64,000 bases of DNA from Marinobacterium litorale DSM 23545 (GTDB taxonomy: Bacteria > Pseudomonadota > Gammaproteobacteria > Pseudomonadales > Balneatricaceae): positions 177,324 to 241,323 of the forward strand of contig NZ_AUAZ01000003.1 of NCBI RefSeq assembly GCF_000428985.1, given 5' to 3'. Below the pieces are notes generated by a model. That model was not told where the DNA came from and ran no database searches. It saw only the letters and a program-made list of their open reading frames with translations. How positions within the stretch are numbered: the stretch's first letter is position 1; every line of letters begins with the position of its first letter. The position numbers and the translations under genes are program-made. This document shows, piece after piece, positions 1,629 through 6,294 of this stretch.

Positions 1629-2156
1629 ATGTCAGACCCCGACCGAAACCGACGCCGCATGGCACGCCTGATGACCCACCTGACCTGGGTGGTGATCCTG
1701 GCGATGCTCACCCTCTACTTCAACAACTACCTGGATCACCAGGAGAACCCTAATGCCTCTCTGGCATTGATGTCCGGCTCCGAGCCGGAAGTGGTGTTGC
1801 AGCGTAATAAGTCGGGCCACTACCTGGCACCGGGCGAGATCAACGGCGAGCGTGTGCGCTTCCTGCTCGATACCGGAGCCACCACCGTCAGCATCCCCGA
1901 GGCCCTGGCAGATCGACTGGGGCTGGAACGCGGACGCCCACTGCGCTCAATGACCGCCAACGGCATCGTCACCGTCTACCAGACCTCCCTGGATACAGTG
2001 ACCTTGGGCGGAATCCGGATGCATGACGTGGATGCAGCCATCAACCCCGGCATGCATGAAGGGATCGTTCTGCTGGGTATGAGTTTTATGGAACACCTGG
2101 AACTGACCCAGCGCCAGGGCACACTCACCCTGCGCGTGCCGGACTCAGCCCGCTAA
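1629..2156 (+). CDS. Membrane-anchored retropepsin-like aspartic protease
   Basis: 175-aa protein of the bacterial clan AA aspartic protease family (TIGR02281-like). One N-terminal membrane segment (about residues 18-35) is followed by a single retropepsin-like domain containing the catalytic LDTGATTVSIP motif (Asp81) and the later hydrophobic LLGMSF segment. Such single-domain enzymes act as homodimers, so the active site would sit in the periplasm. A purine-rich stretch (gagagaggag) lies upstream of the ATG, somewhat far away. A second in-frame ATG at 1659 would trim ten basic residues but has no ribosome site. Substrate is unknown. Confidence 0.85.
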   Translation: MSDPDRNRRRMARLMTHLTWVVILAMLTLYFNNYLDHQENPNASLALMSGSEPEVVLQRNKSGHYLAPGEINGERVRFLLDTGATTVSIPEALADRLGLERGRPLRSMTANGIVTVYQTSLDTVTLGGIRMHDVDAAINPGMHEGIVLLGMSFMEHLELTQRQGTLTLRVPDSAR

Positions 2157-2431: not shown

Positions 2432-2792
2432 CTGAAAAACATCTTATAAAAAAGTCAGGTCGAGCCCTGAGACCGGGGCGTTCTACAATGTTGCGATCGT
2501 CATCTTTGGAGTCGCCGCCGACGATAATGTCGGACTGAGGTTGGGCGGGCTCTGACATCACGGTCTACTGAGGTAGTGCCGGGCTTTGTGCTGCCAGTAT
2601 CATGGACGTTGTTGTAAAACCGCGCTAGATTTGAGGTATTCAGGAGAAACAGGAAGCGCGACATGGCCATTGAAGGCTCAGGGAACACCGTCATAGAAGG
2701 TTACATGATGCTGCAAGCATCCTGTGGCCACATACCCTTGAAAAGCTTTTCCCTTAATAATAGATGCCGTTGCCATGCGGATGGGCGCTTGA
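2432..2792. other. Gene-poor stretch at the island's left edge
   Basis: About 360 bp without a convincing gene. The only frame with a plausible ribosome site is a 59-codon ATG frame at 2663-2842 (AGGA eight bases upstream), whose stop lies inside the next palindrome. Its product resembles nothing I recognise. GC is mixed, and no transposase fragment, tRNA or integrase remnant was found. The stretch could be a remnant of a degraded cassette or of DNA that flanked an attachment site. Confidence 0.3.
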
Positions 2793-2851
2793 GTTCAACA
2801 GATATTTATACGGTCTGCGGATCAGACCGTATAAATGCTTAGCTGTTAAGA
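2793..2851. repeat. attC-like palindrome at left boundary of cassette island
   Basis: A perfect 14-bp inverted repeat (2804-2817 and 2823-2836, starting ATTTATACGGTCTG) encloses a CGGAT loop. Outside it are GTTCAAC at 2793-2799, which fits the RYYYAAC R'' box of integron attC sites, and GTTAAGA at 2845-2851, close to the R' box GTTRRRY. AACAG and CTGTT pair outside unequal internal spacers (about 2 versus 6 bases). The perfect stem without extrahelical bases is atypical, so this may be a divergent attC or a strong hairpin such as a terminator or operator. The first cassette genes begin 34 bp downstream. Confidence 0.45.
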
Positions 2852-2885
2852 TTCGGAAAGAAATCCACCAGTAAAATGATGGTTT

Positions 2886-3479
2886 ATGGATGAAGTGAAA
2901 AGAGAATTTTTAGAGGATCTGGTAAGTACACCACCTGATTTGGTGGCGTCAGGGTGGATATTAAATCGCACACCATACCCTTTTGATGGTGATACACGAC
3001 TATATGAGAATTGGCGTCGCGAGCTAGCGCAAAGAATTGAAGTAGACTCTTCTGAGATCGTTATTACTGGAAGTGGCGCATTTGGAGTTAGTTTGAATCC
3101 AAACAAAAATTTTCGCGAGTTTAACCGCCACTCCGATATAGATGTTGCAGTTATTTCGGATTATTTCTTCACTTTATCCTGGCGCTATTTGAGAAACTTA
3201 GGTTCTGGCATACACGGCTTGCCTCAGCCAGCCAAGCAGTCTGTGCGCGATCATGTCCATAAGTACATCTATTGGGGCACAATTGCAACGGATAAACTGC
3301 TTCCGTACCTGCCATTTGGGAAGAAGTGGCTAGAGGCACTGGATGACATGTCTAAAATCGCTCCGACCGTAGGGCGCGATATAAAAATCAGAGTTTATAG
3401 AGATTTCGATAGCCTTAGGTCTTACCAAGTCAATAATTTGAAGAACCTAAGAGCTCAAGAATTAGAAAAGGGGTTGTGA
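2886..3479 (+). CDS. Nucleotidyltransferase-fold protein, partner of DUF262 gene
   Basis: 197-aa protein with the nucleotidyltransferase (pol beta) superfamily signature: GSGAFGVSL at residues 62-70 followed by DIDVAV at 84-89, giving two metal-binding aspartates (84 and 86). A possible third carboxylate is Asp165 in RDIKIRVYRD. This fold is shared by aminoglycoside and tRNA nucleotidyltransferases, MNT-type antitoxins/toxins and cyclic-nucleotide synthases; I cannot say which applies. No strong ribosome site is seen. One base separates its stop from the DUF262 start, so the two are almost certainly co-translated. The AT-rich coding contrasts with the high-GC core. As the first gene of an integron-type cassette it is horizontally acquired cargo, possibly a defence or toxin-antitoxin component (inference). 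Confidence 0.7.
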   Translation: MDEVKREFLEDLVSTPPDLVASGWILNRTPYPFDGDTRLYENWRRELAQRIEVDSSEIVITGSGAFGVSLNPNKNFREFNRHSDIDVAVISDYFFTLSWRYLRNLGSGIHGLPQPAKQSVRDHVHKYIYWGTIATDKLLPYLPFGKKWLEALDDMSKIAPTVGRDIKIRVYRDFDSLRSYQVNNLKNLRAQELEKGL

Positions 3480-3480
3480 T

Positions 3481-4599
3481 ATGTCCAGATTTCTGAATAC
3501 GACAAATAGGACTGTTGTTTGGTTTAAAAAAACAAATGACGCTGGTGATCTTCAGATGAAGCCACCATTTCAGAGGAATCCGGTTTGGACTTGGCCACAA
3601 AAAAGTTACCTTATAGACAGCATATTGAATGGGTATCCTGTTCCTGAAATTTATATGCAGGAGTTTGTTGATGAAGATGGTAATGAACAGCACATTATTA
3701 TCGACGGGCAACAGAGAATTAGAACTTGCTTAGATTTTATCGAGGGAAAATTCTCTATAAAAGAGGATGAATCCCCCACATGGGGCGGCATGTCCTTTGA
3801 TGACCTGTCAGGAGAAGATAAAAAGAAGATTTTTGGTTATATATTTATCGCCAGAATATTGCCAGAAATGTCTGATGATGCTATTCGTGGTATTTTTCAA
3901 AGGTTAAACAAGAACGTTGTTGCCCTAAACAAGCAAGAGCTTAGACAAGCTACTTACTGGGGGCCTTTTATAAATACAATGCAGGAAATATCTAACTACA
4001 ACTACTGGAGTACCACAGGGATATTTACTCCACTTAATGTTCGTCGAATGATGGATGTAGAATTTATATCTGAACTGGCTATCGCTGTCATACACGGACA
4101 TCAAAATAAGAAAGAAACTATTGATAGATATTATCAAGAGTATGAAGATGATTTCGAACAAAGGGATGAATTGGTTTCGATATTTAGAACAGTGATTTAT
4201 GAGCTTGAGCAATTGCTCCCGGATATAAAAAATACTCGATGGAAAAAGAAGACGGATTTTTACTCGCTATTTCTTTACCTAGCCTCGCATCATAATCGTC
4301 TCCCGTTGACTCTAGAAAAAAGAGGAGAGTTTAGAGAAGCTCTCGATAGATTTTCCAAGGAGGTCAATAGCTATATTAGCTCTGACGCAGATGATGAAGA
4401 ATTCTCACCGCAGGTCGTAACCTATGGAAGATCTATTAGGGCATCCTCGGATCTTGGCAACAGAAAAAGGAGGCACTTGGCACTTTGCGAGGTCTTGGAT
4501 CCTATACTCGAAGTGGCTACTCAGGAAGTGCCCGCGTCAAAAATGACTCCTCTGCAAGAGGGTCTTTTTGATCAGGAGTATCACGATGATGAATCTTAA
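3481..4599 (+). CDS. DUF262 domain protein (ParB/Srx-like nuclease fold)
   Basis: 372-aa protein with an N-terminal DUF262 domain. The substrate-site signatures are PPFQRNPVWTW (about residue 28) and the IIDGQQR motif (about 72-78). In known DUF262 proteins such as GmrSD and SspE this fold uses NTP hydrolysis to control DNA cleavage or nicking. The usual C-terminal DUF1524 HNH nuclease is not evident; the C-terminal half is helical and charged. The ribosome site AAAAGGGG precedes the ATG, and the gene follows the nucleotidyltransferase by one base. Its TAA stop lies inside the left R box of the attC at 4594. The two-gene cassette suggests an anti-phage or genome-conflict module in which the missing nuclease function is supplied otherwise (inference). 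Confidence 0.8.
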   Translation: MSRFLNTTNRTVVWFKKTNDAGDLQMKPPFQRNPVWTWPQKSYLIDSILNGYPVPEIYMQEFVDEDGNEQHIIIDGQQRIRTCLDFIEGKFSIKEDESPTWGGMSFDDLSGEDKKKIFGYIFIARILPEMSDDAIRGIFQRLNKNVVALNKQELRQATYWGPFINTMQEISNYNYWSTTGIFTPLNVRRMMDVEFISELAIAVIHGHQNKKETIDRYYQEYEDDFEQRDELVSIFRTVIYELEQLLPDIKNTRWKKKTDFYSLFLYLASHHNRLPLTLEKRGEFREALDRFSKEVNSYISSDADDEEFSPQVVTYGRSIRASSDLGNRKRRHLALCEVLDPILEVATQEVPASKMTPLQEGLFDQEYHDDES

Positions 4600-4692
4600 C
4601 AAGTAATTCCAGTTTGTTCCGGGCCTGAAGGCCCTCCACCGGATGCCCTTTTCGCTGCGCTACGAGGGCACAGCTGAACAACGGCGTTAGCT
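4594..4692. repeat. Integron attC recombination site (99 bp)
   Basis: The left R'' box ends TTAAC (4596-4600). Nine bases later comes CAG (4610-4612, L''). On the right, CTG (4674-4676, L') is followed by nine bases and then GTTAGCT (4686-4692, R'). The equal 9/9 spacers and the AAC/GTT and CAG/CTG pairs are the defining geometry of attC. The centre holds two small hairpins: GGGCC-TGAA-GGCCC at 4621-4634, and TGCCCT paired with AGGGCA at 4644-4670. The DUF262 stop codon overlaps the left box, as is usual for cassettes. Confidence 0.85.
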
Positions 4693-4722
4693 TATGTTGC
4701 CCCAGCATAGCAAGAGGAACTT

Positions 4723-5679
4723 ATGAAGAAGTACATCATTGAGTGCGACTTGGAAATTGAGTCCTCTCATGGGATAAGCGAAGTAGGGTTTGAAGGTGGT
4801 AATGTTTTCAAGTTAGTTGAAGGCATTGAATCCAAGGGGTGCCCGCTAGGATTGCCCAATACAGAAATTGAAATTATCGCCTCAGATAAGCCAGTATTTA
4901 AAGTTAAAGTAAATTCTTTCGACCTAACTAATCAAGAATCTCAAATATTGTATTTAGGCAAGCTGGCAAGCTATTTGTCATTTATTGCAGCGAAGGATGA
5001 AAAAAATGGACATTATGGTACGCCGTATATAAACATTAAATTCGGCACATTTAAAGCCAGACCTGTTGAGGTTAGAAGTCAAGAAATAATTGACAATGAG
5101 GCTATATTAACATCATTTATCCGAGTTTCAGACTCGCTATCAATAGAGTCAACTAGAAGCATAAGATTTAATCACGCCAGCATCGAATTGATACATCACA
5201 ATGAACTCTTGGGATATTATTACAATGGGCTTAGAGCAGAGAGTGAAAAATCTAAATTTTTTCACTGGTTTTTGATTGTCGAATCCTTGGAGGGTAGTGA
5301 ACGCTATTCTGAAATGTTTCCAAGCGGTACGATGTTCTCCAACGAAGAAAAAGAAAGTATAAAAGAACTAGCAGGCTCATTCGGAAATGATAAAAAGAAT
5401 GCTCTTCTTTCGGTATTAACAAGAACATCAGAGTTTAGAAATAAGAAGCTTTTAGAGTTTTTATATGAATTAGAAGTTAAAGAGATTTTTAATATGCAAG
5501 GAACCCATCCGATAACCATTGATACTATAAAGTGTATTACAAGTGCTAGAAATAAATTATTTCATAAAGGTACTGAATTTCCCACGAAAATCCTTTGGTT
5601 CAACCTATTTCCGATCGTTACGCAAATCGTTGAAAATACGATAAAATATCAATACAGGCTAGAGGCAGCTAACAAATAA
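4723..5679 (+). CDS. HEPN-like protein, cassette-borne, candidate RNase effector
   Basis: 318-aa protein of unknown family. The only clear motif is C-terminal ARNKLFHKG (residues 275-283), matching the R-x4-H signature of HEPN ribonuclease domains (Arg276, Asn277, His281) within a helical region (about 175-310). The N-terminal half, about 1-165, looks beta-rich and could be a sensor domain. This layout resembles ApeA-type HEPN proteins in which a variable N-terminus controls a C-terminal RNase, but the assignment rests on one motif. The ribosome site AAGAGGA lies just upstream of the ATG. The gene sits alone between two attC sites, i.e. a one-gene cassette, and its stop codon lies inside the downstream attC. 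Low GC marks it as acquired. Confidence 0.65.
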   Translation: MKKYIIECDLEIESSHGISEVGFEGGNVFKLVEGIESKGCPLGLPNTEIEIIASDKPVFKVKVNSFDLTNQESQILYLGKLASYLSFIAAKDEKNGHYGTPYINIKFGTFKARPVEVRSQEIIDNEAILTSFIRVSDSLSIESTRSIRFNHASIELIHHNELLGYYYNGLRAESEKSKFFHWFLIVESLEGSERYSEMFPSGTMFSNEEKESIKELAGSFGNDKKNALLSVLTRTSEFRNKKLLEFLYELEVKEIFNMQGTHPITIDTIKCITSARNKLFHKGTEFPTKILWFNLFPIVTQIVENTIKYQYRLEAANK

Positions 5680-5720
5680 TACAGTCGACGCCTACGGCGC
5701 ACCTGATTTAGACGTTATAT
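5667..5720. repeat. Integron attC recombination site (54 bp)
   Basis: R'' box AGCTAAC (5667-5673) is followed by eight bases and CAG (5682-5684). CTG (5703-5705) is followed by eight bases and GTTATAT (5714-5720, R'). Spacers are equal (8/8). The apical stem is CGCC-TAC-GGCG with unpaired bases next to it, matching the extrahelical bases of real attC folds. The preceding gene's TAA (5677-5679) falls in the left spacer. This is the clearest attC in the window. Confidence 0.92.
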
Positions 5721-5734
5721 TTCTAAGACGAATC

Positions 5735-6226
5735 ATGATTACCGAAACTGAATTATGGAAAGAAGATATCGCTAAAACAGCAAACAAATTGCTAAAGCGA
5801 TTGGTGCAGAAGAAGTGGTCAAAGCGATCATGGTTTTGTTTGGAAAAGGAATTGTTTATAGGGTTTTACGCAGTACGAAAGTTAATTGAGTCAGATAATT
5901 CTCTTAATAAATTGTCTCATAAAAAATACGAATTGCTAATGTTTCAGAGGGGAAATATAATTCAGGATGAGTTTGATGAATTCGTACCGTATGACCATGA
6001 AAACAGCCAAAAAGAACTGGTCTCTGTAAGAGATATCTGCAATCAGTTTATACATAGTCACCATCTCATCCCTTTTGCTAGCAATAACAGCTTAGTGGGG
6101 TTTCTCGTTAATTCGGAGTTTCAAAGTAAAAAGGGGATATATATGATTACTATATTTGATATTGTAGAAATATATAGATCATGCGCTGGCCGTGAAGGTT
6201 TAGTAGATCAGAAAAACGAAATATAA
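5735..6226 (+). CDS. Orphan cassette protein, 163 aa
   Basis: No family recognised. The protein is soluble, lysine-rich near the N-terminus (LLKRLVQKKWSKRSW, residues 19-33) and helical in feel. A short segment at 99-109 (RDICNQFIHSH) recalls the Arg/Asn/His cluster of HEPN proteins, but the Arg-to-His spacing of eight is longer than the usual motif, so I do not assign it. The gene starts 14 bp after the attC at 5667-5720 with only a weak ribosome site (AAGACGA). Its TAA overlaps the left arm of the palindrome at 6224. Low GC and position mark it as a single-gene integron cassette. It could be an immunity, defence or regulatory protein; nothing in the sequence decides this. Confidence 0.6.
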   Translation: MITETELWKEDIAKTANKLLKRLVQKKWSKRSWFCLEKELFIGFYAVRKLIESDNSLNKLSHKKYELLMFQRGNIIQDEFDEFVPYDHENSQKELVSVRDICNQFIHSHHLIPFASNNSLVGFLVNSEFQSKKGIYMITIFDIVEIYRSCAGREGLVDQKNEI

Positions 6227-6272
6227 GAGTGCAGTCACGACGACGTGTTTCTCTCGCCGTGGCCACTCCTTA
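6224..6272. repeat. attC-like imperfect palindrome with altered core triplets
   Basis: The left arm begins TAAGAGTG, then CAGTCACGACG; the right arm is CGCCGTGGCCACTCCTTA. The arms pair over about 18 positions around a loop near 6244-6254. As in true attC sites, the upstream gene's TAA is the first base triplet of the left arm. The invariant AAC/GTT pair reads AAG/CTT here and the R-L spacing is shorter. It may be a decayed or variant attC, or a hairpin terminator, though no T-run follows. Confidence 0.4.
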
Positions 6273-6294
6273 GCACCCACAACTAGTGCAATAC

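Follow-up and report, generated by a model that had tools for sequence, protein, structure and literature searches.

An obligate, co-diverging nucleotidyltransferase-DUF262 operon on an integron cassette of Marinobacterium litorale and its possible role in phage defence

Within the 64,000-nucleotide stretch of Marinobacterium litorale DSM 23545 DNA analysed here (the window), a gene encoding a nucleotidyltransferase (NTase) is followed by a gene encoding a DUF262 protein. These two genes form an obligate operon, always NTase then DUF262, whose members have co-diverged and which is carried on an integron, on plasmids and on prophage-like contigs. A preliminary description of this DNA had placed the DUF262 gene one base downstream of the NTase gene, and both coordinates and strand are confirmed: the two reading frames lie on the forward strand (Table 1), and a single spacer base (3480) separates the NTase TGA from the DUF262 ATG. 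The same description held that the genes need each other, which is supported by their obligate order and co-divergence, and that the pair corresponds to no named system. We found none in PADLOC (2023), Pfam, NCBIfam or the literature searched; the primary integron-defence papers of 2025 (cited in PMC12409362) lie outside this coverage, and a prior description is possible. These two parts of the earlier interpretation stand, but the third catalytic carboxylate that it hoped for in the NTase does not.

Table 1. Features of the window (forward strand) and related pairs in other genomes
Feature	Position	Strand	Remarks
attI-like integron leader	2512-2845	+	ends at G of G|TT crossover point; ~95% identical to C13:96544-96887
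Integron cassette with NTase and DUF262, first after leader	2846-4686	+	complementary own ends
NTase ORF	2886-3479	+	197 aa; nucleotidyltransferase, GS...SDID motif
NTase invariant G62 S63, D84 D86	codons 3069-3074, 3135-3143	+	
DUF262 ORF (GmrSD_N, ParB/Srx fold)	3481-4599	+	372 aa; C-terminal half helical, without nuclease motif
DUF262 DGQQR, residues 75-79	codons 3703-3717	+	
attC-like site of NTase-DUF262 cassette	4591-4692	+	R'' GAATCTTAAC ... GCG|TTAGC
Second cassette	4687-5714	+	318 aa ORF 4723-5679; junctions G|TT at 4686 and 5714
Third cassette	5715-6277	+	163 aa ORF 5735-6226; 3' limit approximate
Pseudidiomarina pair copy			86%; cut by insertion sequences
Groundwater gammaproteobacterial MAG pair			59% and 70%
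Cronobacter pair			6.2 kb plasmid
Pseudoalteromonas pair			plasmid pTHAF3_a
L012, L014, L015 pairs			three Pseudomonadota genomes

Co-occurrence and co-divergence of the two genes

Searches anchored on the NTase returned ten confident loci, eight of which have a DUF262 gene directly downstream. In all eight, the window included, the NTase gene comes first and the two genes touch, overlap or lie no more than 12 bases apart. The family is rare. Apart from the source genome, it occurs in 2 of 368 genomes of the class, 2 of 397 of the phylum and 1 of 293 of the order, one of the two class genomes being a weak case (L013) that was left out of membership and rejected as a family member, its match (E 8e-4) being short and lying within a 428 aa frame. 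The other two of the ten loci carry sibling NTases (L007:4283-5537 and L018:771-2058) that have an upstream gene of about 200 aa with a transglycosylase domain (PF00912) and no DUF262 gene, a second kind of two-gene pair.

An independent view of the pairing is provided by the DUF262 protein. A DUF262 profile (A6) was run on viral contigs regardless of the NTase, and 80 loci were kept. An NTase lies directly upstream of every DUF262 gene that scores above 220 bits and has visible upstream DNA (22/22), and of none at or below 214 bits (0/57; Fisher p 5e-20 for high versus low scorers, relatedness ignored); one high scorer (L064) begins at a contig end, with no upstream DNA visible. Because A6 was built from paired loci, its scores are biased towards the paired clade, although the search itself made no use of whether an NTase was present. 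The proposition that the two families rarely co-occur is thus refuted from both sides, by the NTase-anchored and by the DUF262-anchored loci. Across all pairs the intergenic distance ranges from -40 to +12 bases. Mapped onto a tree of 84 DUF262 proteins, presence of the NTase requires 2 changes, against a mean of 24 in shuffles, and the distances among NTases and among their DUF262 partners are strongly correlated (Mantel r 0.92, 25 pairs, 0 of 5000 permutations). Clustering at 80% identity leaves 27 groups among the 31 NTases, so the pairing is not driven by copies. Isolate phage genomes yielded no NTase match with two different queries, and direct NTase pattern scans of viral contigs were likewise empty, an outcome probably due to overly narrow degenerate patterns.

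Several of the pairs occupy recurrent positions. Two lie between replication gene A and the portal/terminase genes of P2-type phages (L026, L028), two directly follow CI repressors (L045, L077) and two adjoin integrases (L041, L046). On one viral contig (L060:1141-4776) a methylase, an NgoMIV-type restriction endonuclease, the NTase and the DUF262 protein are encoded in a tight operon in which the NTase gene overlaps the endonuclease gene; elsewhere pairs follow C5-methylases (L070, L072), and an HNH/type IV-like gene comes after the L070 pair. Other neighbours include a KAP NTPase (L040), a NO VEIN protein (L015) and a weakly TIR-effector-like gene (L004). The flanks of L012 and L014 hold no defence genes, and no third gene recurs in the operon across the pair neighbourhoods. 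Accessory defence genes typically occupy such surroundings, which is context rather than proof.

The two proteins and a sister DUF262 clade

Taken alone, the window NTase matches nothing in Pfam, NCBIfam or PADLOC, and the nucleotidyltransferase family PF01909 is matched by 4 of 24 family members (best E 8e-4). An AlphaFold model of the protein (pLDDT 93.6), predicted, like that of the DUF262 protein, from alignments without plasmid-record rows, consists of a minimal NTase core of four strands to which helices are added. NTases make up nearly all of its best structural matches, with low Z scores (1ylq 3.6, 2rff 3.2, CdnD 2.8); NTases ranked first only in the VIA structural comparison, at these low scores, and Foldseek returned no significant match to the model in PDB or BFVD. 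The single PDB sequence-profile match of the NTase was again 1ylq, at an E value (0.26) that is not significant alone. Together, the PF01909 matches of relatives, the structural matches of the model and the 1ylq profile match suggest that the protein belongs to the pol-beta NTase superfamily. Its similarity to CD-NTases is weak, consisting, besides CdnD, of a phmmer match to 6wt9 (E 0.0028) and matches of two of the 24 members to the PADLOC Cyclase profile (E 0.012), and no named defence profile is convincingly matched by members of the NTase family. The window NTase matches the phage protein family phrog_32008 at 2.5e-50, and 21 of the 24 members also match it; the NTases belong to this family, which has neither an assigned function nor an assigned partner.

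The GS and SDxD (DxD) elements are invariant in all 31 NTases, across about 20% identity; in the window NTase the motif reads ITGSGAFGVSLNPNKNFREFNRHSDIDVAV, and the GS-to-DxD spacing, which is 20 here and usually 20 in the family, ranges from 17 to 35. No third conserved metal-binding carboxylate was found after DxD in the family sequence alignment, where the best acid column reaches 57%, although an unaligned acid may still sit in the active site of the model. Because no third carboxylate is conserved, the NTase could be either a two-acid enzyme or a nucleotide-binding regulator.

The sole Pfam match of the DUF262 protein is PF03235 (GmrSD_N; 1.7e-22 over residues 26-159), which confirms the earlier reading that DUF1524 is absent; the DGQQR motif is intact, as also described. 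Neither protein of the pair has a nuclease domain, and no DUF1524 or HNH nuclease is fused or adjacent according to Pfam, the neighbours being the NTase and unrelated cassette reading frames. The DGQQR motif is kept in all 26 NTase-paired DUF262 proteins. In PADLOC the best match is Menshen NsnA (7.4e-37), and PD-T4-2_A (PDLC04027) is matched at 4e-20. Residues 1-147 of the structural model (pLDDT 85.8) match BrxU and SspE (Z 8.9 and 8.1) as well as ParB/Noc, whose nucleotide-bound forms score Z about 7.5. In SspE, the arginine of DGQQR is required for both GTP hydrolysis and defence (PMC13251355). Structure comparison revealed no recognised effector domain in the helical C-terminal half. We also considered, and rejected, the possibility that the C-terminus hides a HEPN motif: R328..R331, although invariant, is common to HEPN-paired DUF262 proteins as well and therefore belongs to the fold. 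The source genome encodes a second DUF262 protein (C4:187633-188295, in a 615 aa frame), which scores 15 bits with the profile of the paired type.

The closest DUF262 proteins that lack an NTase are accompanied by a different partner, a downstream protein of about 200 aa. These partners form one family of 26, with an RNxxAH-type HEPN motif in 25. An R[NHD]xxxH motif is present in 11 of 11 examined partners from other DUF262 groups, in which the HEPN proteins are longer or shorter, and three of five representatives tested passed the Pfam RiboL-PSP-HEPN cut-off. The HEPN-partnered clade probably represents a broad family akin to PD-T4-2. NTase-paired DUF262 proteins have no recurrent HEPN neighbour. 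The core residues of DUF262 are the same in the two types; position 56 (E56 versus K56) and K257 differ between them, and these two positions may mark the partner contact. Residue 315 is Tyr in 26/26 NTase-paired proteins and mostly Phe in HEPN-paired ones. DUF262 thus looks like a switch with an exchangeable partner.

Two further observations concern such partners. Tested members of the family of about 200 aa with the HEPN motif (L009, L025, L029, L030 and 22 further loci) miss the Pfam and PADLOC cut-offs. On an Asticcacaulis plasmid (L010:3989-6131) a DUF262 gene overlaps a protein kinase gene, and the kinase is possibly another exchangeable partner.

The integron cassette and its array

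Complementary ends are a hallmark of integron cassettes. In the window, the 10-mer GTTAAGATTC (2845-2854) is the exact reverse complement of GAATCTTAAC (4591-4600), whose copy at 4591 covers the DUF262 stop codon; a complementary partner at a distance of 300-2500 bases exists for just 4 of the 1052 GTT sites of the window. The phrase "two-gene cassette" in the preliminary description was therefore well chosen, and is sharpened by these exactly complementary ends. Downstream, AGCTAAC at the 3' end of the second cassette complements that cassette's own 5' end over 7 matching bases, and in the third cassette GTTATATTTC at 5714 pairs with GAAATATAAG at 6218 with one mismatch (9/10). Upstream, the 340 bases preceding 2848 share 95% identity with another stretch of this genome, C13:96544-96887, where the leader copy adjoins a truncated intI fragment and runs into another cassette; identity ends no more than 3 bases from the G|TT point (2845). 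Complementary ends and this shared leader junction identify the pair as the first cassette behind the attI-like leader of a relic integron. It has the attributes that define an integron cassette, namely complementary ends at G|TT and insertion at the attI/attC point. Folding of the attC strand barely beats shuffles (z -1.2), so the assignment rests on end complementarity together with the shared junction and array logic. An Rfam scan of the region gave no match.

No functional integron integrase, that is, no TIGR02249 match above the cut-off, was found in the source genome, a draft of 64 contigs; the sole trace, next to the C13 leader, is a fragment that spans model positions 181-250. The array is a relic, and an intact integrase copy may lie in an assembly gap.

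Other features of these regions were noted. The C13 region near 96,300-98,000 (L102) is itself a relic integron, consisting of the integrase fragment, the leader and a cassette (217 aa) that ends in an attC-like site of its own. A perfect 14-bp inverted repeat without a T run lies at window positions 2804-2836, before the crossover point, and is kept in both leaders. The proteins of the second and third cassettes (4723-5679 and 5735-6226) carry the R-x4/6-H motifs ARNKLFH and RDICNQFIH and, judged by these motifs, are possibly HEPN-like, with no family match. Finally, ARAGORN reports a tRNA-Glu at window positions 1725-1797, within an aspartyl-protease reading frame (1629-2156), which is probably a false positive.

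Candidate functions of the pair

A role in defence is probable, given the context of the pair (integron, prophage slots and restriction-modification operons) and the kinship of its DUF262 protein with PD-T4-2, Menshen, BrxU and SspE. PD-T4-2 of E. coli, recorded with DUF262 and HEPN domains (PMC10952713), defends against T4 in its native strain (PMC9519451) and resembles the pair in having a stand-alone DUF262 protein of about 350 aa without DUF1524 in a two-gene operon, but in all NTase-type pairs the partner is an upstream NTase rather than a HEPN protein, and the analogy concerns layout and domains rather than a tested mechanism. Menshen shares a DUF262 protein without DUF1524, NsnA, as seen in the PADLOC comparison; its DUF262 gene accompanies a predicted OLD nuclease (PMC10952713), and no OLD/TOPRIM gene is present among the neighbours searched. 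GmrSD, BrxU and SspE share the ParB-like DUF262 fold with DGQQR, but their DUF1524 or HNH nuclease is missing here and a separate NTase takes its place as partner. The two-gene systems described by a survey covering the 20 commonest DUF262 clusters pair one GmrSD protein with another (PMC12373910).

We tentatively propose that the pair is a mobile two-protein anti-phage module, abortive or restriction-like, in which DUF262 is the switch and the NTase the effector. The two proteins would form a complex in which DUF262 binds and hydrolyses NTP in its DGQQR pocket, serving as both sensor and switch. The suggested parallel is SspE, whose DUF262 domain likewise senses and switches: hydrolysis follows once marked DNA is recognised, and this licenses the fused nuclease; as no effector is fused here, the partner NTase would assume that role. 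Upon sensing of phage DNA or another infection cue, the NTase would be released or activated, and by nucleotide transfer to a tRNA or protein that is essential it would stop either the phage or the cell. The DUF262 protein of the sister clade, where a HEPN RNase-like partner takes the place of the NTase, would then be the same switch, shared between effectors that can be exchanged. More broadly, the two clades may represent an unnamed defence class, a possibility to which we give somewhat less than even weight, in which a DUF262 NTPase is the common switch and the effector is swapped between lineages, being either a downstream HEPN RNase-like protein or an upstream, divergent two-carboxylate NTase. 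The weak point of the proposed module is its effector step: because it lacks a conserved third carboxylate, the NTase may have little activity or may do no more than bind nucleotides as a subunit, and this would break the step.

Placement of the NTase gene first is also compatible with an antitoxin, since the first gene of such an operon often encodes one (PMC3710099). In a toxin-antitoxin-like arrangement parallel to the type VII HEPN/MNT (HepT/MntA) modules, a harmful DUF262 protein would be silenced by the upstream NTase through NMPylation or binding, and infection or loss of the module would free it. The precedent is MntA, which adenylylates HepT and thereby neutralises it (PMC7641770). 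The NTase is likewise a small, single-domain pol-beta protein of minimal type in a strict two-gene module, its top structural matches include 1ylq and 2rff, and Y315 of DUF262 is a conceivable NMP acceptor. Nevertheless we consider this arrangement doubtful: the GSX10DXD motif of MntA is not matched, the spacing being about 20 rather than 10; MntA uses three acids, D39, D41 and D71 (PMC7641770), and the third is unconserved here; the NTase is about 200 aa as compared with 80-150; and its partner is not a HEPN protein and contains no nuclease or other toxin domain.

Invariance of GS and DxD without a conserved third carboxylate would also be expected of a weak or dead nucleotide-binding subunit, the pair then being an NTPase of two subunits that detects nucleotides or DNA ends, with the C-terminal half of DUF262 or a host protein as effector. 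We regard this as unlikely, as strict conservation of GS...SDxD at about 20% identity usually indicates that phosphate and metal chemistry remains under selection and the C-terminal half of DUF262 holds no recognised effector domain. Addiction modules are common among mobile two-gene units of this size, and the defence-free flanks of L012 and L014 would suit a cargo with a selfish or housekeeping role and no link to phages, such as stabilising a plasmid or cassette; such a cargo is improbable in view of the recurrent P2-type prophage slots, the restriction-modification operons and the kinship of DUF262 with defence proteins. CD-NTases are about 300-400 aa long and possess a C-terminal helical domain. 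A CBASS-like system, in which the DUF262 protein would respond to a nucleotide messenger synthesised by the NTase, draws on the weak CD-NTase similarity described above and is very improbable, given an NTase of about 200 aa that lacks this domain and a conserved third acid, CdnD matches no better than those to other NTases, a DUF262 pocket that resembles NTP-hydrolysing ParB and SspE rather than a messenger receptor, and the absence, by Pfam and PADLOC, of any CBASS effector or ancillary gene adjoining the pair.

DUF262 proteins recur in phage defence, and examples without a nuclease occur in PD-T4-2, Menshen and Dazbog. With its two genes and either a HEPN or an NTase partner, such a clean unit makes the idea of a common switch with exchangeable effectors directly testable, and a function for the pair would give the unannotated phage family phrog_32008 a role.
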